From Zhongshania aliphaticivorans (lineage in GTDB: Bacteria; Pseudomonadota; Gammaproteobacteria; Pseudomonadales; Spongiibacteraceae), in contig NZ_CACSIK010000001.1 of NCBI RefSeq assembly GCF_902705875.1, forward strand, positions 2,599,166 through 2,663,165: DNA of 64,000 bases, written 5' to 3'. Positions 37,986-50,169 of the stretch are shown here, one piece after another (within the stretch, counting starts at the first letter, position 1; each line of letters starts with the position of its first letter). Below the pieces are notes generated by a model. That model was not told where the DNA came from. It saw only the letters and a program-made list of their open reading frames with translations, and did no database searches. The translations under genes and the position numbers were made by a program.

Positions 37986-39607
37986 TCACTCCTCCCAAAT
38001 CAATTTTCCGCTCACAGACTGCTCCACAAGTATTTTCGTGGCTGCTTCAATCTCATTTCGCTTAAGTTTCATCGTGGGAGTTAATAAACCATTTTCAATG
38101 GTCCAAGGTGATTTTACGACAATCAATCTATCCAATCTTTCATGTGACTCTACCGCAGCATTTACCGAGTCCAATGTCGCTAACAAGGTTTTTTCAACCG
38201 CAGCCTTGGACTGCCCATGCTGTGCATTCAACACCACCAAGGCCACCGGCTGAGGCATACCTGAGCCGACTACGCAAGATTGCTCAATATAAATATTTGC
38301 TTCTACAAGCGACTCAAGAGGCACCGGCGCAACATATTTACCCTTCGCTGTTTTAAATTGCTCCTTCACTCGCCCGGTAATACGCCAAGAGCCATCGGCA
38401 TTCTTTATTGCCTTGTCACCGGTTTTAAACCAGTCGCCCTCAAACGAGGATTCGGTCGCCTCGGGATTGTTGTAGTACTCCTTAAACACGGGTTCTCCGC
38501 GAACCATTAATTCACCTTCCGCCGACAACTTCAGTTCCAGCTCATCAAAAGGTGTACCAATCGTGCCCAAGTGTGCAGCTTGAAAAGGCGAGTTACCCGT
38601 GGCCGCACCAGACAATTCGGTCATTCCCCAGCCTTCACCAATATTTACCCCCAAGCGCTGCCACCACGTTAATAAACTAGGCGAAATAGGAGCCGTGCCG
38701 GAGCCAAAAGAACCACAACAGCTAAAGCCAAGCTGCTGCCGAATGCGTTTCGCAAATAACTTGCCCAAAACCGGAATCGACAATATTACTTGTAAACGAT
38801 GATCTGGGACTTTTGCGAGAATCTGGGCTTGGAATTTTGCCCATAACCTTGGCACTGACAAAAATACCGTCACCTTGGCGTACTTCAAGTCGCTTACAAA
38901 TGTCTCTAATGACTCATTAAAAAATATTTGAATGTCATCGCCATTGTCACCAAACTACGCTCTGTAATATGCGCCATTGGCAAATAGGACAGTACTCGGT
39001 CACCTGAATCACTATACATCACGGACAAGGCCGAAGCCGCAGACTCTAGATTTCGCCCCGTTAGCACCACGCCCTTAGGCTGCCCCGTGCTACCGCTGGT
39101 GTAGACTAAGGTGTAAACATCGTCCAACTCAGGAACACAGACATCGTCAAGCGGCTGAAACTCCGATAACCAATCATTCCACTGAATGTCGGCCTTCACC
39201 ATATCATAAGGAAAGCCAATGGTTGGCAAGTTCGGATTGCCCGCCTGCAAGGCGCTATAATCATCTAGCTTGCCAACAAAAATCGCTTTACTCGCACTAT
39301 GCTCCAACACATAGGCAATAGTGCTCTCCCCTGCGGTGTAGTAAATAGGCACGCTAATGTAGCCCGCCATAGCAATGGCTATATCAGCGATAATCCATTC
39401 AGCTGAGTTTTTCGCCAATATTGCAATCTTGTCACCGCGTTCATAGCCCTGACTTTGCAGTCCGGCAGCGATTTTTCTGGCCTGAGTAGCAACATCAAGC
39501 CAGGTATAGGCAGTCCATTCACCACCCTTAGCTTGATGCAAATACAGCGCATTTGGCTTGGATTCAACTCGATTCAAAAACTGCCTGACTGGGTGCACTG
39601 CACTCAT
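37986..39607 (-). pseudogene. Frameshifted long-chain acyl-CoA synthetase (AMP-binding)
   Basis: Two adjacent frames make up one adenylate-forming enzyme. The N-terminal part runs from an ATG at 39607 (AAGGA 6 bases upstream) and contains YTSGSTGQPKGVVLTGRN and SYLPMAHITERS. The C-terminal part contains SVPRLWAKFQ, GEGWGMTELSG, WFKTGDK and TAKGKYVAPVPLE. Near 38940 the first frame ends after the sequence diverges into FKYFLMSH. The +1-shifted frame continues correctly as GDDIQIFFNESLETFVSDL and joins the second part. The family normally has a few more residues here, so a small out-of-frame deletion is likely. The gene is probably inactive unless this is a sequencing error. Confidence 0.85.
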
Positions 39608-39853
39608 ATTCATTCCTTGTTTATTATAAAAAAATGAGATCATCGCCAATGCGACAATTGTCCATTAATCAGGACTGTATGGTCTGAAGCCAAAATAAAG
39701 CTTCTTTAGATGCAATACAACACACTTACAGCGAATTAATGATGACGAGGTGCCCAATTCATTGCGCAAATCTTTATCTACAACAAGCAAGGGAAAATCA
39801 TAAGGCCAGACATAAAGCTTGTATTTTCGTCCAACACCAATGCCGCTATAAAT

Positions 39854-41254
39854 TTAATGAGTATTAGATAAGAGAAAAGCCGGTTGATCAATAATATCCG
39901 CTAGCTGCTGCAAGCCTTCCTCCCAGGTATCACGGCTGATTGGCCCGCCATAACATACGCGCAAGGCCTCTGGGGGATTGTTATCAGTACTAAATGCGGC
40001 GCTGGCAACTGCGCTCACACCCACAGAGCGAAGATGTACAGCCAATTCGGAGGGATTCCAGTTGGAGGCCTTAGATAATTTAAGCCACAAATGAAACGCT
40101 CCCTTGGCACCAGAAATCCGATTGCGGCCCAAGTATTTCTCTGCAAGCTTAAGGCGAGCGGCGCCTTCATTACAGACCGCTTTTAGCATCATTTCTGCAG
40201 TGCCATCCATAATCCAGGCGGTGACCAAGGCGTCTGTCAGCGGGCTGGACATAACCGATAAGGCTCGCATTGCGCCCGCCACCCGCTGGGCCTGGCGCTT
40301 ACTGGGGGCATGCAAGAACGCTGAACGCAAACCTGGGCCAAAGCATTTGGCCGTGCCGGTAATGTAATACGTTAATTCAGGCGCGAGATCTGCAAAGGGC
40401 GTTACCGGCTCATTGGTCAGCATGGTATAGGCATCGTCTTCAACAATCGGAATGCTATAACGCAGGGCGACGTCCGCTAAACTCTGACGACGACTTAAGG
40501 GGATAGTGGTCGTAGTGGGGTTGTGAATGGTGGGGTTTAGATACAGCACAGCGACTCGGCCCTTCTTGCAGGCCTCTTCAAATGCCCTTGGCAAGGGTCC
40601 GTGCATATCGCGCTCGAGGGAGTGCAGGGTTAGGCCCAGCTGCGCCGCGATCGCTTTCATTCCCGGATACACCAAGCTTTCGACACACACTAGCTGCCCC
40701 GGCAAGACCAATTGTGTCATCAGCCCAACCAGCGCACTGTGAATACCTGGGCAAATAAGCACCTGCTCTAGTCGCGCATTGCTAAGGCGTCGATCCAGCC
40801 AAATCAGCGCCGCTTCCCGGTCGTGCCGCCCGCCGCCAAAGGATTGATAACGAAGCAAAGAATACAGGTCGCGCTGTGCCAAAACCGCAATAGCGCTGTC
40901 CCGGACTTGCTCTATCAAGGTGGGGATCGCCGGTTCAATTAACAAATTCATCGTCATCTCATAGCCGCCTTTAACGGGGCCAAGAGACACTGTCTTACCT
41001 TTGACAAAGCTACCGGAACCGGGGTGCGACTCTATTAAACCTCGACGCTTGGCTTCATTGTAAGCCCGCGCGGCGGTGGTGTAATTGATACCGAGTGCCG
41101 CCGCCAAATCACGTAAGGTCGGTAACCTATCTCGAGCCTGAAATCGGCCCGACTCGACGTCTTCATCAATTAAATCAGCAATTAGCAGATACGCTGGCCG
41201 ACCTTTTTCTTTCTCTAGGGTTTTTGCCCAGCGTTGAAGTTCTGTCTCATTCAT
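39854..41254 (-). CDS. MocR-type regulator (GntR HTH fused to aminotransferase class I domain)
   Basis: A 466-residue PLP-dependent transcription factor. The N-terminal winged helix (about 15-85; LPTLRDLAAALGINYTTAARAY and LIESHPGSGSFV) is followed by a fold-type I aminotransferase domain, with VEDDAY for PLP binding and the Schiff-base Lys in GTAKCFGPGLRSAF. Divergent placement to the Nit1C operon, with 344 bases between, and the repeated elements there make it the likely regulator of that cluster. The effector would be an amino acid- or amine-like nitrogen compound, by analogy with other MocR proteins. This differs from the sigma-54-type NitA regulator that I recall for the Pseudomonas Nit1C cluster. 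Confidence 0.93.
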   Translation of the reverse strand: MNETELQRWAKTLEKEKGRPAYLLIADLIDEDVESGRFQARDRLPTLRDLAAALGINYTTAARAYNEAKRRGLIESHPGSGSFVKGKTVSLGPVKGGYEMTMNLLIEPAIPTLIEQVRDSAIAVLAQRDLYSLLRYQSFGGGRHDREAALIWLDRRLSNARLEQVLICPGIHSALVGLMTQLVLPGQLVCVESLVYPGMKAIAAQLGLTLHSLERDMHGPLPRAFEEACKKGRVAVLYLNPTIHNPTTTTIPLSRRQSLADVALRYSIPIVEDDAYTMLTNEPVTPFADLAPELTYYITGTAKCFGPGLRSAFLHAPSKRQAQRVAGAMRALSVMSSPLTDALVTAWIMDGTAEMMLKAVCNEGAARLKLAEKYLGRNRISGAKGAFHLWLKLSKASNWNPSELAVHLRSVGVSAVASAAFSTDNNPPEALRVCYGGPISRDTWEEGLQQLADIIDQPAFLLSNTH

Positions 41255-41598
41255 AAATCGATAACTCAGTTCTTAGATCAAATTGCAAAATTGATCGTAT
41301 CATTTAATAAAATTGATTGCATTACGCGGCCGTACCTAACGCCTTTGCCCCACCGGCTTGCACACAAGCACAAATACAGTGCATAGCAAGCACCCCATCA
41401 ACAAACGCTATTGCGGCAGCAAATCCAGACTAAAAATTATTTTTAACAAATATCCAATTAGTGAGCCGGACTTGATTGCATATTGATTGCAATCAAAAAT
41501 AAATTGATTGGCATATTGATTGCAAAATTAAAATCGCATCACTGAACAATATAGCAGTGATCATTACTTTCAAATAGTCCAACTGGAGAGACGCAGTC
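41255..41598. promoter_or_regulatory. Divergent promoter region with TTGATTGCA repeats (putative MocR operator)
   Basis: Copies of TTGATTGCA start at 41472, 41483, 41504 (with one inserted G) and 41516, plus one at about 41313 and a partial reverse copy near 41283. The copy at 41483-41496 forms a perfect 14-bp palindrome, TTGATTGCAATCAA. Offsets of 11, 21 and 12 bp place the copies on one face of the helix. Direct or inverted repeats of this sort are typical of MocR operators. The cluster of sites is 75-127 bases upstream of nitB. Confidence 0.78.
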
Positions 41599-42081
41599 AT
41601 GCCAAAAGTAACCCATGAAAAGCACAAAGCGGGCGATTTTTTTGTTGATTACGAGGAAAAGGTATTCGAGGACGTAAAAGCGGAAGCCGGCCAAAAAGCA
41701 CTGGTCACCTTTCACACCGTCGCCTTCGAAGGCTCAATCGGCTTCGTTAATATGCTGCAGGCCACCCGCCTACTGCGCAAAGGTTTTGAAACCTCAATAT
41801 TGTTATACGGCCCTGGGGTAACGCTAGGACTACAAAGAGGCTTTCCCACACTTGGCGACGAAGCGTTTCCCGGCCATCTCAACTTCAACAATCAGCTGAC
41901 TAAATTTATGGCTGAGGGCGGCAAAGTCTATGCCTGTCGCTTCGCGCTGCAAGCACTTTACGGTCACGGTGAGCCCTCACTTATTGACGGCATCTGCCCG
42001 ATCAACCCTTTAGACGTGCTTGATCTGAAGCTGCTTCATATCAAAGACAATGCCGTAATTATCGATACTTGGACTGTGTAA
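41599..42081 (+). CDS. nitB: NitB: MSMEG_0572/Sll0783 family nitrogen starvation response protein
   Basis: A 160-residue cytoplasmic protein, first gene of the Nit1C cluster. It has no catalytic motif I can identify, but the sequence around [33 protein letters not shown] and [13 protein letters not shown] is characteristic of the MSMEG_0572/Sll0783 family (DsrE-like fold is possible). GGAGAG precedes the ATG. It is followed after 8 bases by the nitrilase gene. The biochemical role of the family is unknown. Confidence 0.92.
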
Positions 42082-42089
42082 GGAGCACA

Positions 42090-43118
42090 ATGATGGCGCA
42101 GTGTAAAACGATACGCGCCGCGGCTGTTCAGCTCTCTCCAGATTTGGGGAGCGCTGAAGGTACGCTGGCTAAAGTGCTAAACACCATTGACGACGCTGCC
42201 GCAAAGGGCGTTGAGCTTATTGTGTTTCCAGAAACCTTCGTTCCCTATTACCCCTATTTTTCATTCGTATACCCACCCGTGGCCTCTGGCCCCGAGCACC
42301 TGCGCCTTTACGAAGAGGCCGTGCTGGTTCCCGGCCCAATAACCCGCGCTGTTGCGGAACGCGCTCGGGCAAGAGAGATGGTGGTGGTACTCGGCGTCAA
42401 CGAACGCGACAACGGCAGCCTGTATAACACCCAATTAATTTTTGACGCTGACGGACAGCTGGTACTAAAGCGTCGCAAACTAACACCCACCTTTCACGAG
42501 CGCATGATCTGGGGGCAAGGCGATGCCTCTGGCTTGAAAGTCGCGGAGACTCGGGTAGGACGTGTCGGCGCATTAGCCTGCTGGGAACACTACAACCCGC
42601 TAGCGCGCTACGCGCTGATGACCCAACACGAACAGATTCATTGCAGCCAATTCCCTGGTTCACTTGTCGGCCCAATTTTCGCTGATCAAATAGAGGCCAC
42701 AATACGTCACCACGCATTAGAAGCGGGCTGCTTTGTTGTCAACTCCACCGGCTGGTTAAGTGATGAGCAAATAGCATCCATCACCTCGGACCCCAAATTA
42801 CAGCGCTCACTCCGCCACGGCTGCAATACCGCCATTGTTTCGCCAGAGGGCGTGCACCTGGCAACACCGCTGCGCGAAGGTGAAGGGCTCGTCATTGCCG
42901 ACCTCGACTTCAATTTAATTACCAAGCGGAAACGCATGATGGATTCCGTAGGCCATTACGCCCGCCCCGAACTCCTTAGCCTGTTGATTAACGACAAGCC
43001 CAGCAGCTACAGCCAAGCCATGCCTAGCACCACCCACACCATAACGGGAGAACTCTGCGATGAAGCCGAAGCCAAGCTCGATGCCCACAAGCCACTCACC
43101 ACAGCGGATGATTACTGA
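42090..43118 (+). CDS. nitC: NitC: nitrilase of the Nit1C cluster (Nit6803 family)
   Basis: Carbon-nitrogen hydrolase of 342 residues, starting at the ATG at 42090 with AAGGAG just upstream. The catalytic triad is complete: Glu in [12 protein letters not shown], Lys in [17 protein letters not shown], and Cys in [17 protein letters not shown]. These motifs match aliphatic nitrilases of the Nit6803 type, which hydrolyse nitriles to acids and ammonia. In cyanotrophic Pseudomonas the homologous NitC is needed for growth on cyanide. The 3' end overlaps the start of nitD. Confidence 0.94.
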
Positions 43119-44175
43119 GCTACAAACCCAAGGTTTACGACTAGCAAGTGGCAAGAGCACACAGTTACGACGCAAAGGTGGCGCCGGCCCCAGCGATCAC
43201 CAAGCTATTACCATTGGCGACACCACCGTCATGGTGCCGGTTTACAGCGACAGCGCTTGGGAGTCTCCCTTTTCAGTGGATGAGTCCAATGACCGCAACT
43301 CACTGAACCAAGATGGCATCCCGCTAGCCGACATCACTTTTGTGAATAACCCAAAATTTTATGAGCTGCATACTGCTGACGGTATTCCCTACTCCCATAT
43401 CGCCACGCTCCACAGCCGCGACGTGTTGGCAACTACGGTACTGCAAACCTGCATTCGCTATGAGAGTCGTCGCAAGGCCTGTAAATTCTGCTCAATTGGT
43501 CAATCGCTAAGAGCCGGGCGCACCATTGCCCACAAAACGCCGCAACAACTTGCCGAGGTCGCCAAAGCTGCCGTGGAGCTGGACGGCATTCAACACATGG
43601 TGATGACAACAGGCACACCCGCCACACCGGATCGTGGCGCGGCGGTACTTTGCGACAGCGCCCTTGCGATTAAGGCCGCCGTTGACCTGCCCATTCAAGG
43701 TCAGTGTGAGCCGCCAAAAGACCCCATTTGGTATCAACGCATGAAAGATGCTGGCATCGATGCCCTGGGCATGCATTTAGAAGTAGTGACCCCAGCACTG
43801 CGCGATGAACTGATGCCCGGCAAGGCAGAACTGACGATGGACGTCTATATGCAGGCCTTCGCTGATGCGGTTGCAGTCTTTGGTCGCGGCCAAGTTAGTA
43901 CCTATATTTTAGCGGGACTGGGCGACAGTGCTGAGGCGATTACAGCGTGCTGCGAAAAACTGATCGCCTTAGGTGTTTACCCCTTTGTTGTGCCCTTTGT
44001 ACCGATCCGCGGCACTCCTTTAGAAGACCACCCAGCACCTACCGCCGATTTTATGGAACCGCTGTTAGAGACCATTGCTGCCCAGCTCGCTAGCGGCCAA
44101 TTGCGCTCAACGGATATTAAAGCTGGCTGCGGACGCTGCGGAGCCTGCTCAACCTTATCCAAGTACGAGCACTGA
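43108..44175 (+). CDS. nitD: NitD: MSMEG_0568 family radical SAM protein
   Basis: Radical SAM enzyme of 355 residues. I choose the ATG at 43108, overlapping the nitC stop by 11 bases, because the family begins with [11 protein letters not shown]; starts at 43060 or 43081 are possible. The [4Fe-4S] cysteines are in [18 protein letters not shown] (spacing Cx9Cx2C). A C-terminal Cys cluster, [11 protein letters not shown], may bind an auxiliary cluster or stabilise the fold. The early [14 protein letters not shown] motif is typical for this biotin-synthase-like family. The reaction is unknown. Confidence 0.93.
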
Positions 44176-44189
44176 GGAGGCGAAAAGCC

Positions 44190-44876
44190 ATGACTAGCAG
44201 CCAAGACCCAAAACATCTGCGCGCGCATTTAGCGGATCACACGCAATCTTACAGTGGCTTTACCATCAAATGGGCCAGCTTACCCTGGGAAGTAAATGAA
44301 GCTCAGGCATTGCGGCGCAGAGTCTTTTGCGAGGAGCAAAGGCTGTTTGAGCGCGACGACCTAGATGTCTTAGACCAGCGAGCGACGGTTGATACATCGA
44401 CAGATCAACAAGCCCGAATCCTTGTGGCGCTGGGCAGCCTATGTGGCTGGCATGAACAAATTGTTGCCACGGTGCGCATTCACCAAGAAGCCCCCGGTGT
44501 TTGGTACGGCTCTAGGCTGGCGGTAGATAAGCATTTTCGACGTCAAGGCAAGCTTGGCGCCAGTCTAATCAAACTTGCGGTGTCCAGCGCCTACGCCCTT
44601 GGCTGTGAATGCTTTTTAGCCAATGTGCAATTGCAAAACCAAGCGTTATTTGAACGCCTGCATTGGCAACGTATTGGCAGCAATGTGGTTCGTGACCAAG
44701 AGCACGCGCTCATGCAGGCCAACTTGGATTTTTACCCACCCTTCACCACCCCCTACAGTGGATTTATTGTTCGCAACCAACACCGCCGGAGACCCCAGAA
44801 AGAGCTTGCGCCAAACCTACTATTACCGATGCAGGAACTTGAGGGCAGCGGGCAGATAGGAGCGCAATCGCTATGA
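44190..44876 (+). CDS. nitE: NitE: GNAT acetyltransferase (MSMEG_0567/Sll0786 family)
   Basis: A 228-residue GNAT-fold acyltransferase. The acetyl-CoA binding region is SRLAVDKHFRRQGKLGASLIKLAV, with the Q/R-x-x-G-x-G/A variant RRQGKLGA. It is preceded by the strand IVATVRIHQEA and followed by CFLANVQLQNQALFERLHW. In mycobacteria this domain is fused to the following AIR-synthase domain; here, as in cyanobacteria, they are separate genes overlapping by 4 bases (ATGA). The acceptor substrate is unknown. Confidence 0.92.
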   Translation: MTSSQDPKHLRAHLADHTQSYSGFTIKWASLPWEVNEAQALRRRVFCEEQRLFERDDLDVLDQRATVDTSTDQQARILVALGSLCGWHEQIVATVRIHQEAPGVWYGSRLAVDKHFRRQGKLGASLIKLAVSSAYALGCECFLANVQLQNQALFERLHWQRIGSNVVRDQEHALMQANLDFYPPFTTPYSGFIVRNQHRRRPQKELAPNLLLPMQELEGSGQIGAQSL

Positions 44877-45880
44877 ATCTGCGCCAATTATTAGATCAGG
44901 TTTACCGGCATTCAGGTATCGACCACAAACGCGACATCAGCCGCTTAGCACCGTATATGCCGCCCCTAGCCAGTGGCCTGCACCCCAACGGCGACGATGC
45001 CGCCGCACTCCCCAGCCCCGATGGCTACACCCTGTTGGCAATGGAGGGGTTTATTGAAGAGTTTGTCGAACACGACCCCTGGTTTGCAGGCTGGTGCGGC
45101 GTCATGGTGAATGTCAGCGACATAGCCGCAATGGGTGGCCGCCCCAGTGCCATCGTCAACGCTATTTGGGACAAGGGCGGGGACAAGGCCGAACGCATCA
45201 TGCAGGGTATGCACGACGCGGCCACCTGCTTCGGCATTTCCTTAGTCGGCGGCCACACCAACCTCCATGCCAATAACACGCAATTGGCGGTCGCGATTAT
45301 GGGCCACGCTAAACAGTTACTCAGCAGCTTTGCCGCCCGGCCAGGCCAAGCTCTGGTGGCCGCCATTGATTTACGCGGCGAATATCGCGCGCCATTTCTT
45401 AATTGGAATGCTGCCACTGGAGCACCGCCAGCAAGACTGCGCGGAGATATCGCACTACTAGCAGAAATTGCCAACAAAAAATTAGCTACCGCCGCAAAAG
45501 ACATTAGCCAAGCAGGATTACTTGGCACCACCGTAATGCTACTTGAAAGCTCTGGTGTTGGCGCAGAAATAGACTTAAGCGCGATTCCGCGCCCCCAAGA
45601 ACCAAGCTGGGCCGACTGGCTTTGTAGCTTTCCCAGCTTTGGATATTTGCTCACTTGCGACCACGACCAATTACCAGCACTGCTAGAAAAATTTCACAGC
45701 CGTGATATTGCCGCCGCTGAAATTGGTCAAATAACGCAAGAACAAAACCTTTTTGTTCATCACCAAGAACAGAGGGAGCTGTTCTGGAATTTAGCCACTT
45801 CCAGCTTAACTGGACTAGGGAAAGTCCCCCGCCATTCACTTCCCGTACAACAACAGAAGGTACAGCCATGCCCGCTCTAA
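44873..45880 (+). CDS. nitF: NitF: AIR synthase-like protein (MSMEG_0567/Sll0787 family)
   Basis: A 335-residue ATP-dependent enzyme of the PurM/SelD/ThiL superfamily. Motifs include GDDAAALP (metal and ATP), GVMVNVSDIAAMGGRPSAIVNA and SLVGGHTN. These enzymes activate an amide or similar oxygen by phosphorylation before attack by a nucleophile, so this may form or activate a C-N bond in the Nit1C product. Overlaps nitE by 4 bases and nitG by 13 bases. Confidence 0.92.
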   Translation: MNLRQLLDQVYRHSGIDHKRDISRLAPYMPPLASGLHPNGDDAAALPSPDGYTLLAMEGFIEEFVEHDPWFAGWCGVMVNVSDIAAMGGRPSAIVNAIWDKGGDKAERIMQGMHDAATCFGISLVGGHTNLHANNTQLAVAIMGHAKQLLSSFAARPGQALVAAIDLRGEYRAPFLNWNAATGAPPARLRGDIALLAEIANKKLATAAKDISQAGLLGTTVMLLESSGVGAEIDLSAIPRPQEPSWADWLCSFPSFGYLLTCDHDQLPALLEKFHSRDIAAAEIGQITQEQNLFVHHQEQRELFWNLATSSLTGLGKVPRHSLPVQQQKVQPCPL

Positions 45881-46155
45881 ATTTCACAGTCCGCTGGCCA
45901 GACAACAGTGTCGATATCTGCTACTCGCCGTCTACGGTACTGCTCGAGCATCTTAAGGAACACCAGCATTACCCGCTCAACGATTTTTTGCATCGTACCC
46001 AGCTTGCGCTAAACAAAGCCAGCGACCGCGTCGAGCAAAAATACGGCTACCAATGCAGCAGCGCAATGGATCAACTCGCCCGTATCAAGACCAAAGCCAA
46101 ACACTTTGGCCAGCACGACAATGAAACCGTCGAAGTTATCAGCATCACCCCCTGA
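45868..46155 (+). CDS. nitG: NitG: MSMEG_0570 family nitrogen starvation response protein
   Basis: A 95-residue protein with the family start (NFTVRWPDN, then ICYSPSTVLLEHL), a central helical segment LNDFLHRTQLALNKASDRVEQKYG, and a C-terminal tail with conserved CSSAMDQL. No catalytic motif is identifiable; it may be a small partner protein. Translationally coupled to nitF. Confidence 0.9.
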   Translation: MPALNFTVRWPDNSVDICYSPSTVLLEHLKEHQHYPLNDFLHRTQLALNKASDRVEQKYGYQCSSAMDQLARIKTKAKHFGQHDNETVEVISITP

Positions 46156-46211
46156 CATGTTGACGCCAACATTTTGTAATAAACGACTTAATATTTTAAG
46201 AGGCACATAAA

Positions 46212-47498
46212 ATGAATACCCAAACTACGCCAAAACAGCATTTGCCTGTCATTATCGTTGGCGGCGGCCAAGCCGGCCTGTCGGTTAGTTATTACTTACA
46301 AGAACAAGAAATCGAGCACTTGGTACTCGAGCGCAAAACCCTGATGCACAGCTGGCAAAGTCAACGCTGGGATTCGTTTACCTTAGTAACCCCAAACTGG
46401 CAGTGTAATTTACCCGGCCATCCCTATGATAGCGACGAACCAAAGGGCTTTATGCGCCGCGACGATATCGTCGCCTACCTCAAACGCTTTGCCGACAAAG
46501 TAAAGCCGCCGGTACGCGAAGGCGTCACCGTCAATCGCATTAGTATCGCCAGCGACGGCAGTTACGAAGTGACGACCAGTGACGGCAATTACAGCTGCGA
46601 TCAAGTCGTGATTGCTTCAGGTGGCTACCAAGCCCCCATCATCCCCCGCATGGCAGAAAAACTACCCGACGACTTATTCCAAATGCATTCCGCGCAGTAT
46701 AAAAACCCAGAGCAACTCCCCGACGGGGCAGTGCTAGTGGTCGGCTCGGGTCAATCGGGCGCGCAAATCGCCGAAGACCTTCATCTCGCAAAACGCAAAG
46801 TGATTCTTGCCACTGGCGACGCACCACGTGTCGCTCGTCAGTATCGCGGTAAAGACGTGGTGGAATGGCTGCACGACATGGGCTATTACGATATTTCTGT
46901 TGAGCAACACCCTCTGCGCGAAGGTGTCCGCGACAACACCAACCACTATGTCACCGGTCGCGACGGCGGACGCGAAATTGACTTACGTCGCTTCGCTCAA
47001 GAAGGCATGGAACTGTATGGCCTAATGGAAAATTATGACGGAGAAAATTTACTATTTAAAGATAACCTCGCTGCCAATCTAGATCACGCAGACAAGGTCT
47101 ACCGGAATATCAACACTCGCATCGATACTTGGATATCAGAACAAGGTATTGAAGCTCCTGCTGCCACCGAATACAAAGCGGATTGGCAACCTTCTGAAGA
47201 GCGCGGCAAACTGAATTTAGCAGACGCTAACATTGGCAGTGTGCTTTGGTGCATAGGCTACCGCCCCGATTTCGCCTGGCTAGATGCTCCCGTATTCAAC
47301 GGCATGGGACACCCCCAACACACGCGTGGCGTTAGCGCCCAAACCGGCTTATATTTCATTGGCCTACCGTGGTTGCACACTTGGGGCTCAGGGCGCTTTT
47401 CCGGAGTCGCCCGTGATGCCGAATATATTGCTCAACAGATAAAATCACAGGCGGCAGGCGAAGAAGTAAAGAGTGAATTTGCTAGCATTGAAATATAA
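46212..47498 (+). CDS. nitH: NitH: MSMEG_0569 family flavin-dependent oxidoreductase
   Basis: A 428-residue flavoprotein monooxygenase-like enzyme. It has an N-terminal FAD motif (IVGGGQAGLSVSYYL), a second Rossmann motif for NADPH (VVGSGQSGAQIAEDL, about 176-190), and the intervening HSWQSQRWDSFTLVTPNWQCNLPG segment typical of class B flavin monooxygenases. It is the last gene of the Nit1C cluster, 56 bases after nitG. In cyanotrophs the homologous flavin enzyme has been suggested to act with the radical SAM and nitrilase steps; the substrate is unknown. Confidence 0.94.
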   Translation: MNTQTTPKQHLPVIIVGGGQAGLSVSYYLQEQEIEHLVLERKTLMHSWQSQRWDSFTLVTPNWQCNLPGHPYDSDEPKGFMRRDDIVAYLKRFADKVKPPVREGVTVNRISIASDGSYEVTTSDGNYSCDQVVIASGGYQAPIIPRMAEKLPDDLFQMHSAQYKNPEQLPDGAVLVVGSGQSGAQIAEDLHLAKRKVILATGDAPRVARQYRGKDVVEWLHDMGYYDISVEQHPLREGVRDNTNHYVTGRDGGREIDLRRFAQEGMELYGLMENYDGENLLFKDNLAANLDHADKVYRNINTRIDTWISEQGIEAPAATEYKADWQPSEERGKLNLADANIGSVLWCIGYRPDFAWLDAPVFNGMGHPQHTRGVSAQTGLYFIGLPWLHTWGSGRFSGVARDAEYIAQQIKSQAAGEEVKSEFASIEI

Positions 47499-47786: not shown

Positions 47787-50105
47787 CTACAGAGCATAAC
47801 GGAAGTTTAACGTGTACATGCGCGGGTCTTCTAAGTTACCACAATACTGACAGGGAACAAGAACAGACTGGCCACCAAAATTGATCGTGCGCTCATCTGT
47901 TATATTGAGCGCACTCAAACTAACACCCCAGGAATTTTCCAGATTGCTTATACCGACATTCGCATTAAATTTCCAAAACGCATCTTGGATTGTCGCGGCT
48001 TCATGGATTGAATCAAAATAGTATTGATCAGAATATTTAGCGTCGAGTCGCGCATTAAACATAAAGCCGCCAAAACCTTTGGTGTAGTCAATAAAAGCAC
48101 TACCGCTGGCATCTGGGGCTGCTAGTAACGGCTCTCCATTAAAGTCCTCTGTGCCATCAGCGCTGTTTTGACACTCCACAGATTGTGCGTTGACATTCTG
48201 CGGACAAGTTCCCTGGAACTCAGTATACCTCGCTCGCAAAACAGCAGCGTTTAGACCAACCATGATATCTTCTGATACAAGGTAAGTTAACTCCACCTCA
48301 AGCCCTTTGCTCTCTGCTTCACCAGCATTCTCGACGACAAAAGCCGTTTCGTCGAGGGTAGAGACCTGTAAATTTTCAAACTCGGTATAGAATAATGCCG
48401 TATTCAGACGTAAACGCCGATCGAACAACTCCATCTTCGCACCAATTTCATAATTTCTGGCACGCTCTTCGTCATACTCAAAACCATCTATATTTCCAGT
48501 AGATTCGGTAGCATTAAATCCACCACCTTTAGTCGCTCTTGCATGAGTGAAGTACAAATTAACATCATCGTTAACTACCCACTGCAAGTTAAAAGTGCCA
48601 TCTGTATTGGCCTCTTTGCGGGTTTGCTTGTCATAGTCATAAGCCCCCGTACCAGAGGAAGTCGCAAGCGCCAGAACGGCAGGGTTAGTTTCAGGCTCAT
48701 CAGTTTGATACTGATTAATCTCTTGACTGGCTTTGGCTGATTTTTCTTCCACCGAACGACGCACACCAAGAGTTGCACTAATGGCATCTGTTATATTCCA
48801 CGTGCCCTGCACAAAACCAGAAAACGCCTCTGACTCCTCATAATAATCAATCGCTGTCGAGTAATGGAAATCAAGTGCAGGTGGCACTGACAATTGCAAA
48901 TCAATATCTCTTCCCGAGCCCCTTAAATCTAAGGTTCGATCTAAATAATACAAACCACCCATATACACAAAACGTTCACCCACCGGCGAGGTAAACCGCA
49001 GCTCATGAGACACTTGCTCGAAGTTTTCGGGGACATATTCAACGACTAAATCTGCACCGCTAAAGTCACCATCACTGGCACTAAAACGGTCATAGGCAGA
49101 GTAACCGCCAGTGTAGCTCACTTCAAAATCACCAACTTGCTGCGCAACATTAAGGGTCACACTATCACTATCTTGATCTAAGAAAGTATCACTTGATTTT
49201 CCATCCTGATAATTGGTCGTATTAAAAGTATAATCTTCGCCCGCCGCATCTTGCGCCGCCACAATTGACGCAGTTATAGGCGCAAGAATAGGATCCGTTT
49301 GCGGCGCAGTACGGTCATAACCAATTATCTGAAACTTACTTCCTTCTTCGTCATATTTACTATGCTCAACTTTCAACAAAACATCGGTGGTATCACTAGC
49401 AGCCCAGTCCACGCTTAAACGCACAGCCTGCCCGTTCCCACTTTGATCTGGTTCACCGGGACCATCACCACTGTAATGATTTTCTATAAACGATTCATCC
49501 CTAGACTCGCTAACTACTAAACGTGCACCCAAGCCCGAATCCAAAATTGGTCCAGATAATATTCCAGTGAGCACACTACTACCGTACTCAAATTCGTAGC
49601 TACCCTGGATTTCCGCTTCAAATTCATCCGACGGCTTTTCACTGTGAATACTAATCGCCCCAGCAATGGAGTTTTTACCAAATATAACGCCCTGTGGGCC
49701 ACGCAATACTTCAACACGCTGCACATCTAGAAAGGGGATTTGAAATTGTGCTGATCGTCCGGCGTAGATACCATCAACGTACAAACCTACGCTTTGTTCA
49801 AATGAGGGGTTTGCTGCACCGGATCCCAAGCCACGCATGACAATAACATTGGCATTGGGCGAGTCACTGATATTAAGATTAGGTACCAGCGATGACATTT
49901 CTTCTAGATTACCAATGCCATTTTTTGCCATTGTATCTGCCGATACCGCATTAATGGATACCGGTACATCCTGAATACTCTCAGTTCGTTTTTGAGCTGT
50001 CACTATCACTTCTTCAAGCTGTGGCGCGCTGAAAGCAGCCATAGAAGTAATTGAAAGGGTGACCGAGGCCAGAAACTGAGCAGGTGTTTTTGGTGCAATT
50101 CTCAT
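47787..50105 (-). CDS. TonB-dependent outer-membrane receptor
   Basis: A 772-residue receptor from the ATG at 50105 (a TTG one codon upstream is the alternative). The signal peptide ends near AAFSAPQ, and the TonB box region reads LEEVIVTAQKR. The plug domain carries VMRGLGSG, VGLYVDGIYAG, VEVLRGPQGVIFGKNSIAGAI and HSEKP. A 22-strand barrel ends in NFRYAL with a terminal Leu. The lack of a Fur box and the presence of a catabolic regulon suggest uptake of an organic compound rather than a siderophore. It is closely related in its N-terminal 130 residues to the receptor starting at 62932. A FadR-class palindrome lies 65 bases upstream. Confidence 0.95.
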   Translation of the reverse strand: MRIAPKTPAQFLASVTLSITSMAAFSAPQLEEVIVTAQKRTESIQDVPVSINAVSADTMAKNGIGNLEEMSSLVPNLNISDSPNANVIVMRGLGSGAANPSFEQSVGLYVDGIYAGRSAQFQIPFLDVQRVEVLRGPQGVIFGKNSIAGAISIHSEKPSDEFEAEIQGSYEFEYGSSVLTGILSGPILDSGLGARLVVSESRDESFIENHYSGDGPGEPDQSGNGQAVRLSVDWAASDTTDVLLKVEHSKYDEEGSKFQIIGYDRTAPQTDPILAPITASIVAAQDAAGEDYTFNTTNYQDGKSSDTFLDQDSDSVTLNVAQQVGDFEVSYTGGYSAYDRFSASDGDFSGADLVVEYVPENFEQVSHELRFTSPVGERFVYMGGLYYLDRTLDLRGSGRDIDLQLSVPPALDFHYSTAIDYYEESEAFSGFVQGTWNITDAISATLGVRRSVEEKSAKASQEINQYQTDEPETNPAVLALATSSGTGAYDYDKQTRKEANTDGTFNLQWVVNDDVNLYFTHARATKGGGFNATESTGNIDGFEYDEERARNYEIGAKMELFDRRLRLNTALFYTEFENLQVSTLDETAFVVENAGEAESKGLEVELTYLVSEDIMVGLNAAVLRARYTEFQGTCPQNVNAQSVECQNSADGTEDFNGEPLLAAPDASGSAFIDYTKGFGGFMFNARLDAKYSDQYYFDSIHEAATIQDAFWKFNANVGISNLENSWGVSLSALNITDERTINFGGQSVLVPCQYCGNLEDPRMYTLNFRYAL

Positions 50106-50169
50106 CAAACTCTACCTATATATTATTAGTTCAAACGCTAGGGCGTATGTAGAAAAGTATTATGACTAC

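Follow-up and report, generated by a model that had tools for sequence, protein, structure and literature searches.

A divergent MocR-type regulator probably gates an NtrC/sigma-54 promoter of the Nit1C operon in Zhongshania aliphaticivorans

The Nit1C operon in the window (the whole 64-kb stretch analysed, 64,000 nucleotides) faces a divergent MocR-type regulator that probably gates an NtrC/sigma-54 promoter ahead of nitB. We draw this reading from the predominance of MocR regulators beside Nit1C in the sampled genomes, the conserved boxes between mocR and nitB, and a predicted sigma-54 element before nitB. Sequence comparison brought out the operon, the divergent MocR and, within the searched samples, its exclusive association with Nit1C, as well as the boxes, the sigma-54 element and a spacing that is fixed in many, not all, loci.

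Judged from its gene families, the locus is an intact Nit1C operon with a predicted role in cyanide/nitrile assimilation (Table 1). As the sequence-only reading had stated, the cluster is complete: all seven proteins scored above their NCBIfam cut-offs, and the genes lie in the order B-C-D-E-F-G-H on the + strand (41599-47498). The overlaps which it described were present at nitC/D, nitE/F (4 bp) and nitF/G (13 bp); short gaps separate nitD/E, nitG/H and, if nitC starts at ATG 42090, nitB/C. NitE also matched FeeM, slightly below the FeeM cut-off.

Table 1. Features of the mocR-nitB-H locus, in coordinates of the window.
Feature	Position	Strand	Basis or remark
mocR, putative Nit1C regulator	39854..41254	-	GntR HTH PF00392 and fold-type-I aminotransferase domain PF00155
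MocR box ATTGATCGTAT, mocR-proximal cluster	41290..41300	+	box search
MocR box ATTGATTGCAT, mocR-proximal cluster	41312..41322	+	box search
NtrC-like palindrome GCAC-N7-GTGC, 141 bp upstream of sigma-54 element	41368..41382		weaker than other elements
MocR box CTTGATTGCAT, first of 11-bp direct repeat	41471..41481	+	box search
MocR box ATTGATTGCAA, start 27 bp ahead of -24 element	41482..41492	+	spacing analysis
MocR-like box over -24 element	41503..41513	+	box search
Predicted sigma-54 -24/-12 promoter TGGCATATTGATTGCA	41509..41524	+	exact match to presumed consensus
MocR-like box over -12 element	41515..41525	+	box search; such overlap in 10/75 regions
nitB	41599..42081	+	TIGR04044, 286 bits
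nitC nitrilase, ORF; likely start ATG 42090	42069..43118	+	TIGR04048, 565 bits; PF00795
nitD radical SAM protein; start may be further 3'	43060..44175	+	TIGR04043, 572 bits
nitE GNAT acyltransferase	44190..44876	+	TIGR04045, 191 bits
nitF AIR-synthase-like	44873..45880	+	TIGR04049, 420 bits
nitG	45868..46155	+	TIGR04042, 117 bits
nitH flavin-dependent oxidoreductase	46212..47498	+	TIGR04046, 664 bits

The divergent gene encodes a protein of 466 aa with the MocR architecture (PF00392 + PF00155). Its predicted PLP lysine, Lys303 (K303), aligned with the catalytic-lysine motif of solved aminotransferases and was invariant in 82/82 Nit MocRs, as were Asn245 and Arg432, and the invariant R135, E107 and F139 were specific to the clade. 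The residue comparison and the tree covered 82 Nit MocRs and 16 outgroup proteins picked by us; L143, with mocR broken across two reading frames, was left out of the tree. There, the Nit1C MocRs formed one clade of 82 rows (the window and 81 others) with support 100. The nearest named family was EhuR/EnuR (NF052286), whose cut-off of 480 bits the MocR did not reach (346 bits). The tree ruled out MpaR and the MocR of the cio cluster, with MpaR-like proteins as stand-ins. Those located beside some Nit1C loci sat on a separate distant branch with 21% identity to the window MocR; they were assigned via neighbours and residue numbering, on which the non-orthology to MpaR rests. A search of Pseudomonas-family genomes for MpaR and for the cio MocR, by way of the genes around ccoN and cydA, gave no clear case in 31 stretches; weak MocR matches occurred in two of these (26% in L299, 22% in L323), neither directly adjoining ccoN or cydA.

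In the sampled Pseudomonadota, MocR is the majority Nit1C regulator and NitA the minority one, and the sequence-only reading, which had treated a MocR here as a departure from the usual, did not stand. Of the 80 named Nit1C loci nearest to the window's, 68 had a divergent MocR; Cupriavidus necator (L089) is one named species of the MocR type. In the locus counts given here, near-identical loci (e.g. L137/L143, L076/L077, L094/L096) were counted separately and related loci are not independent; the upstream genes of two loci are hidden or partly hidden (L144 begins 264 bp before nitB, L119 ~1.8 kb before). Nit1C was found in 14 of 359 genomes of the phylum sample, with MocR in 13/14 and the NitA sigma-54 activator in 1/14, and in 24 of 390 genomes of the order sample, with MocR in 19/24 and NitA in 5/24. 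The MocR searches of class and order scored the best candidates per genome, 4 at most. Among the matches listed for the order, all those with at least 42% identity adjoined Nit1C (19/19), the next best reached 35%, and the 19 genomes with MocR-type Nit1C were exactly those with such a match. The association of this clade with Nit1C thus looks exclusive in the searched samples. Other neighbours of the MocR gene in relatives, which the sequence-only reading had named as its own refutation, did not turn up among these matches, and its belonging to other genes is rejected on that basis.

The mocR-nitB intervals contained boxes of the consensus ATTGATYGCAT, mostly as direct repeats at 11 bp spacing, which represent a conserved putative operator. 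They were analysed in 75 regions, i.e. 86 MocR loci minus 5 duplicates of named contigs and 7 loci with >800 bp between mocR and nitB (looked at separately), plus the window; L137 and L143, which have the same interval, were each counted. At least two boxes were present in 75/75 regions, with 438 sites in total vs 64 in shuffles. In cross-validation between MocR groups, at least two boxes were recovered in 16/16 and 18/19 test regions, and in 12/19 in the worst split. No boxes were found in the five NitA-type regions. The repeat array ascribed earlier to the window's regulator was borne out by six TTGATYG boxes within 344 bp. In the whole genome, TTGATYG-N(4-16)-TTGATYG matched nine times, four in the mocR-nitB interval and five elsewhere, and the backwards control pattern gave 0 matches. 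In Massilia, two separate units each had boxes close to the promoter.

A conserved sigma-54 -24/-12 promoter is predicted ahead of nitB, with transcription starting near 41535. The element was recognised only after viewing the conserved columns, and was scored against what we take to be the -24/-12 consensus: 43/75 regions had an exact match (0.2 expected) and 73/75 a match with at most one mismatch (4.9 expected). Ten phylum loci were first taken as held out (7 exact, 10 with at most one mismatch); two, L355 and L357, are the same contigs as L138 and L142, and in the remaining eight the element was exact in 5/8 (0.03 expected) and within one mismatch in 8/8 (0.28 expected). In 49 of the 70 regions having an upstream box, the nearest one began exactly 27 bp before the TGG, and the named loci gave 51 matches at this spacing vs 0-6 at ten other spacings. 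The combined module was absent from both strands of control loci of 1.06 Mb and 0.44 Mb, and occurred in the window at a single place, ahead of nitB. The spacing is not universal: it was seen at the nitB promoter of just 1/8 held-out loci and was absent in several of the 75, alphaproteobacterial ones among them. Three Methylophilaceae loci carried an inserted porin-like gene with its own second copy of box and promoter. The NitA-type loci had a looser -24/-12 element at a similar distance. The view of sigma-54 and MocR as alternatives, taken in the sequence-only reading, is not supported, as the MocR-type promoter itself resembles a sigma-54 promoter.

Further upstream, palindromes resembling what we presume to be the NtrC consensus were observed at -190..-125 in 34/75 regions (4.7 expected) and were missing in 41/75 within the tested window of positions. 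Allowing at most 2 mismatches, 1/10 phylum loci had such a site (0.4 expected). The genome itself encodes eight long NtrC-family matches, of which one scored above the family cut-off, so that an NtrC gene is present.

On balance, we favour a two-input Nit1C promoter, which sigma-54 and NtrC would open and from which a cyanide-derived ligand would lift the MocR gate. RNA polymerase with sigma-54 would occupy the -24/-12 element (41509-41524), and the promoter would be opened from upstream by an enhancer-binding ATPase, for which NtrC, acting when nitrogen is limiting, is the likeliest candidate. The divergent MocR would sit on the directly repeated boxes with 11 bp spacing, at roughly -64 to -43 relative to the predicted start, and also on the second box cluster close to mocR, and would gate the promoter by whatever its PLP-bearing domain has bound. 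In the likeliest case, it would keep the promoter shut and repress itself until a cyanide-derived ligand binds, the candidates being an adduct of cyanide with PLP and a cyano/amino compound formed from cyanide. We infer here NtrC as activator, repression over activation, ligation by PLP and the identity of the ligand. MocR is not an AAA+ activator, and in consequence the way in which it would control transcription by sigma-54 is a puzzle. More tentatively, and with the odds somewhat against it, we propose that a PLP-dependent MocR directly gates a sigma-54 promoter, that this dual logic of nitrogen starvation and PLP-captured cyanide, not NitA, is the standard control of cyanide assimilation in Pseudomonadota, and that in many beta-/gammaproteobacterial loci the MocR lies between the NtrC-like enhancer and the -24/-12 element at a fixed helical phase.

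The part given to MocR could be read differently. It may directly activate nitB, as GabR and TauR do on their targets, with the sigma-54 promoter opened by an enhancer-binding protein other than NtrC; we regard this as less likely than not. MocRs often activate the divergent target and repress themselves (PMC5320631), and the 41 regions without NtrC-like sites and the several NtrC-family matches of the genome point the same way. Nevertheless, EnuR is a repressor (PMC8739950), the MocR of the cio cluster is a putative one (PMC8567248), and two more boxes of the window overlap the -24/-12 element, a repressor position, although over the -12 part this holds in 10/75 regions only. That MocR is a hitch-hiking neighbour, its boxes serving autoregulation alone, is very improbable: autoregulation is indeed common among MocRs (PMC5320631), but most regions with an upstream box keep it at exactly 27 bp from the sigma-54 element of nitB, module copies recur at the porin-like gene and boxes at the two Massilia units, and the association with Nit1C is strict. 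We give equally little credence to the view that the -24/-12 element merely accompanies conserved boxes or reflects common descent, with nitB on a sigma-70 promoter. A box of sequence ATTGATTGCAA does overlap the -12 part in the window, and related sequences have sites in common; yet 65/75 regions lack a + strand box over the -12 part while 43/75 have exact elements, and the opposite strand of the 75 regions gave 1 exact match (0.4 expected) and 10 with at most one mismatch (4.3 expected). The held-out loci and the looser element of the NitA-type loci also argue against it, and a consensus scan of the + strand revealed no sigma-70-like match.

The inducing signal was weighed separately. The sequence-only reading took a MocR to imply a signal other than cyanide, and we consider it doubtful that the regulator responds to an amine or amino acid with no link to cyanide, with Nit1C serving another metabolite. 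The inducers of EhuR/EnuR, the nearest named family, are amines reacting with PLP (PMC8739950); the pocket retains residues of amine-sensing relatives (invariant Lys303 and Arg432, together with Asn245), and an amine would suit it no less well than cyanide. Against this, the score lies below the EhuR cut-off, the clade-specific residues suggest a ligand of the MocR's own, and known MocRs are linked to cyanide: MpaR of P. aeruginosa controls genes in response to cyanide (PMC10790758), and the cio/nit4 cluster of strain CECT5344 has a MocR as its putative repressor (PMC8567248). Moreover, genes of a cyanide-respiration-type module adjoin 9/81 MocR-type Nit1C loci; none were found in the fetched stretch of the other 72/81. 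For four of the outgroup MocR loci, the first residues of the neighbouring proteins were listed and gave no hint of a ligand. Cyanide is favoured as the signal, from these neighbouring genes and the known cyanide-responsive MocR, and a neighbouring MocR should not be taken as the mark of a non-cyanide pathway.

As far as the available parts of the sources go (PMC5333837, PMC11049912, PMC10138600), Nit1C control has so far been described from Pseudomonas with NitA as regulator, and nit1C of CECT5344 (Pseudomonas pseudoalcaligenes/oleovorans) responds to cyanide or a cyanide-containing residue by induction and is linked to cyanide assimilation. The sigma-54-type NitA of Pseudomonas, mentioned in the sequence-only reading, agrees with what is given in PMC11049912. 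The nitABCDEFGH cluster of CECT5344 has the same seven structural genes in the same order and a divergent regulator, but that regulator is the sigma-54 activator NitA; the NitA-type proteins in our survey were PAS-PAS-AAA+. The common solution in the sampled Pseudomonadota appears instead to be a MocR operator near a sigma-54 promoter, a combination for which a partial search of the literature found no earlier case. With nitrogen-control NtrC/sigma-54 promoters, by their presumed consensus, it shares the -24/-12 element and, at some loci only, upstream palindromes of the NtrC-like form GCAC-N7-GTGC, and differs by the putative operator of a ligand-binding MocR between enhancer and promoter. 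The window MocR resembles EnuR/EhuR in its PLP lysine and an arginine at the carboxylate-type place, and differs in its operon (theirs serves ectoine catabolism) and clade-specific invariant residues. With MpaR it shares the architecture, whereas the published MpaR motif, ATCTGAT, is unlike the window boxes (PMC10790758). The locus offers a compact testable promoter of 344 bp, and its MocR is a candidate for biosensing as a transcription factor that may respond to cyanide. In CECT5344, the cio MocR adjoins a sulfite-reductase haemoprotein and cioAB, and its putative targets are cyanide-insensitive respiration and Nit4, not Nit1C (PMC8567248); a cio-like gene set was observed beside Nit1C in Marinomonas and Marinobacterium.

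The Nit1C operon of the window is intact, as the sequence-only reading had proposed: nitB to nitH are complete, and each scored above the curated cut-off of its own Nit1C family. The divergent gene was also correctly recognised as a MocR, its product combining GntR-HTH and aminotransferase domains. The top named model was EhuR, the ectoine regulator (346 bits, where the cut-off is 480); the protein is therefore a relative of EhuR and not a member. No second match to it was found at E 0.001 in its own 3.98 Mb genome (10 candidates scored). Among the matches listed, the closest named relatives at the nit locus belong to Zhongshania. The AMP-binding (acyl-CoA-synthetase-like) gene adjoining mocR is broken over two open frames, both halves of which match PF00501, and a TonB-dependent receptor gene is convergent to nitH.

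At the family level, NitD was above the cut-off in six of 21 genomes, and MocR is present in four of the six: that of the window and three relatives. In the three relatives, MocR is 80-88% and the adjoining NitB 92-94% identical to the window copies; in the remaining two of the six, Nit1C is more distant (NitB 73-74%) and lies next to a protein of 637-643 aa, which in the one copy scanned (locus L015) is a PAS-PAS-sigma-54-activator, i.e. NitA-like. The regulator and the structural genes thus travel together. In the order and phylum samples, which share part of their genomes with other samples, NitB was above the cut-off in 24 of 390 genomes (MocR in 19, NitA in five, none of the 24 with both or with neither) and in 14 of 359 (MocR in 13, NitA in one). 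The sequence-only reading had asked whether MocR keeps other neighbours in relatives; a MocR search of the 390 order genomes returned 19 matches at ≥ 42% identity, all at the same 19 Nit1C places, and the next match was 35% identical. In the class sample (369 genomes), NitD was above the cut-off in four, three of them with MocR. The fourth locus, L343, had neither MocR nor NitA; a PAS-GGDEF-EAL protein reads away from its nitB, and its nitD contains an internal stop.

A scan of named genomes yielded at least 524 NitB relatives. Among the best 80 of these, MocR reads away from nitB in 68 loci, seven of which have genes inserted between mocR and nitB, and the 12 loci lacking MocR are from ten cyanobacteria (one of these loci is cut by the end of its contig), one member of the Eremiobacterota, and Agaribacter marinus. 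The latter is the one gammaproteobacterium of the 80 in which Nit1C has no MocR near it; upstream of its nitB lies a gene matching the major-royal-jelly-protein family, not a regulator. In Paraburkholderia elongata, mocR is split over two frames on one of two near-identical contigs. In a quick tree, with SH-aLRT support only and a long-branch warning among the non-Nit proteins, a branch with full support separated the 82 Nit-associated MocRs from 16 other MocRs and three MpaR-like proteins.

When words were counted in 75 mocR-nitB intervals with no pattern given beforehand, TTGATTGCA/TTGATCGCA came out as the most enriched, and the word TGATTGCAT was present in 46 of the intervals (1.6 expected). 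A matrix for the predicted MocR box, ATTGATYGCAT, trained on the same 75 intervals, found 438 sites versus 64 in shuffles, with at least two in every interval. Because the matrix scored the intervals on which it was trained, we cross-validated between MocR groups, and two or more boxes were present in 16/16 (twice) and 18/19 test intervals, and in 12/19 in the worst split, with means of 2.2-4.9 boxes per interval versus 0.21-0.36 in shuffles. The boxes form two clusters, one before nitB and one before mocR; on the same strand they are most often spaced by one helical turn, 11 bp (43 pairs; next 10). None of the five NitA-type intervals contained a box. In 11 loci that have neither MocR nor NitA, the 499 bp scanned contained one or two weak matches in six cases and none in five, which is about the shuffle level. 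All eight phylum loci unused when the promoter element was recognised (held-out loci) had one or more boxes no further than 400 bp from nitB; in two, the nitB strand carried none close to the promoter.

Aligning the intervals on their box pair revealed further fixed columns downstream, TGGCA-N6-TTGC, which we take to be the sigma-54 -24/-12 consensus. On the nitB strand, the exact element occurred in 43/75 intervals (0.2 expected from shuffles; one on the other strand) and, allowing one mismatch, in 73/75 (4.9 expected; other strand 10 versus 4.3), at a median of 88 bp upstream of nitB. The held-out loci gave 5/8 exact (0.03 expected) and 8/8 within one mismatch (0.28 expected). In NitA-type loci the element is looser and stands 76-100 bp upstream of nitB, within one mismatch in 1/5 and within two in 5/5 (0.3 expected), so sigma-54 is probably served by both regulator types. 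In cyanobacterial loci, the element was within one mismatch in 1/9 (0.4 expected).

Where a box lies upstream, the nearest starts exactly 27 bp before the element in 49 of 70 intervals. This spacing recurred in only 1/8 held-out loci, and the distance is mostly larger in the alphaproteobacterial loci of the 75-interval set, so it looks like a beta- and gammaproteobacterial feature. On both strands of the named loci, box plus promoter gave 51 matches at 27 bp, and 0-6 at each of ten alternative spacings. The window (64 kb) has a single 27-bp match, at the nit promoter, and the combination was absent from 31 control stretches of the Pseudomonas family and from 14 loci of other MocRs. With genes inserted between mocR and nitB, the predicted module can occur twice: three Methylophilaceae loci have it before both nitB and a porin-like gene (89-115 bits, below the model's cut-off of 150). 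Two Massilia loci have a sigma-54 element (≤ 1 mismatch) at both units, with boxes over or near it, and two Marinomonas loci with inserted genes have the element at nitB only. As for the activator, NtrC-like palindromes (GCAC-N7-GTGC, at most one of 8 positions mismatched) lie 125-190 bp before the promoter in 34/75 intervals (4.7 expected), were not found there in 41, and are rare in phylum loci, so NtrC is the likeliest candidate, not a proven one. The window has such a palindrome, and NtrC is encoded in its own genome.

Nit1C, NitA and MocR are each already known. In the main-text portions of the Nit1C and MocR-nitrilase literature covered, we found no description of MocR beside Nit1C, nor of a MocR operator at a sigma-54 promoter, papers on MocR and RpoN being covered in small part. 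The main text of a MocR regulon survey (PMC5320631) contains none of the terms nitrilase, cyanide, sigma54 or RpoN.

We lean slightly towards a cyanide-derived ligand for MocR. According to excerpts of the respective reports, endogenous cyanide is the cue to which MpaR, a MocR predicted to bind PLP, responds in controlling genes, and its authors proposed a PLP-cyanide adduct (PMC10790758). For the cio MocR of CECT5344, a putative role as repressor of the cio cluster with Nit4 was based on how mutants grew and on proteomics that the authors had not published (PMC8567248); this MocR has cioAB and a sulfite-reductase haemoprotein as neighbours (PMC10138600). Several genera have a comparable gene set next to MocR-type Nit1C (NirA-family haemoprotein 6, CcoG 4, cytochrome bd genes 3, MpaR-like 8). 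Cyanide-respiration-type neighbours or MpaR-like regulators together occur in 9/81 distinct MocR-type loci, and in none of the NitA-type or cyanobacterial loci (106 sequences searched). The MpaR-like assignment relies on neighbouring genes and residue numbering, not on comparison with MpaR's own sequence: four of the MpaR-like proteins (start set) have a lysine and a tyrosine at, or within one residue of, the published numbers, and in two of them two phenylalanines match as well.

An amine unrelated to cyanide would be a less probable ligand, although K303, N245, D273, Y276, R310 and R432, invariant in 82/82 Nit MocRs, are by position (placed by motif and not through an EnuR alignment) the PLP- and amino-ligand-binding residues given for EnuR in the part of the source covered (PMC8739950). 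R135, E107 and F139 are also invariant in Nit MocRs and occur in 1, 0 and 0 of the 16 outgroup proteins, so the clade probably has a single ligand of its own. Loci L085, L094 and L096 have a NirA-like haemoprotein, an MpaR-like MocR and cytochrome bd upstream of mocR-Nit1C, with CcoG also upstream in L094 and L096 and not in L085, possibly an island for respiration in the presence of cyanide and for its assimilation.

In several families, amounting to about one in five sequences, the operon is extended, usually directly 3' of nitH, by an LnmK-family acyltransferase/decarboxylase (TIGR04099; 22/106) and a methylmalonyl-CoA-mutase-like gene (21/106). Seven enterobacterial loci and Oxalicibacterium have an AMP-ligase in that place; a ninth match is weak. 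The window NitE matches the N-acyl amino acid synthase FeeM just below the cut-off, and together with the acyltransferase-type extensions this hints that acyl transfer may belong to Nit1C chemistry, a lead and not a result. An MSMEG_0565-type glycosyltransferase occurs in 22/106 sequences. In Vreelandella and Marinomonas, a second nitrilase adjoins mocR, related to the Nit6803 family and under its cut-off in the two copies scanned (L085, L080).

Features of the window and of fetched loci (L-numbers)
Feature	Sequence	Positions	Strand
Split AMP-binding gene	window	37986-39649	-
NtrC-like palindrome	window	41368	
TonB-dependent receptor	window	47787-50108	-
Gene upstream of nitB, A. marinus	L150	8627-9715	
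Nit1C locus without MocR or NitA	L343	1154-2836	
Split mocR, P. elongata	L143	8259-9651	
Possible cyanide island	L085	779-6944	
Possible cyanide island	L094	55-7228	
Possible cyanide island	L096	34-7212	
Porin-like gene between mocR and nitB, own box and promoter	L081	8467-9690	
Porin-like gene between mocR and nitB, own box and promoter	L082	8245-9510	
Porin-like gene between mocR and nitB, own box and promoter	L113	8327-9580	
Second nitrilase beside mocR	L080	7101-8180	
Second nitrilase beside mocR	L085	8695-9618	
Second nitrilase beside mocR	L086	2896-3819	
LnmK-family/mutase-like genes after nitH	L081, L082, L085, L094, L096, L089, L104, L123, others
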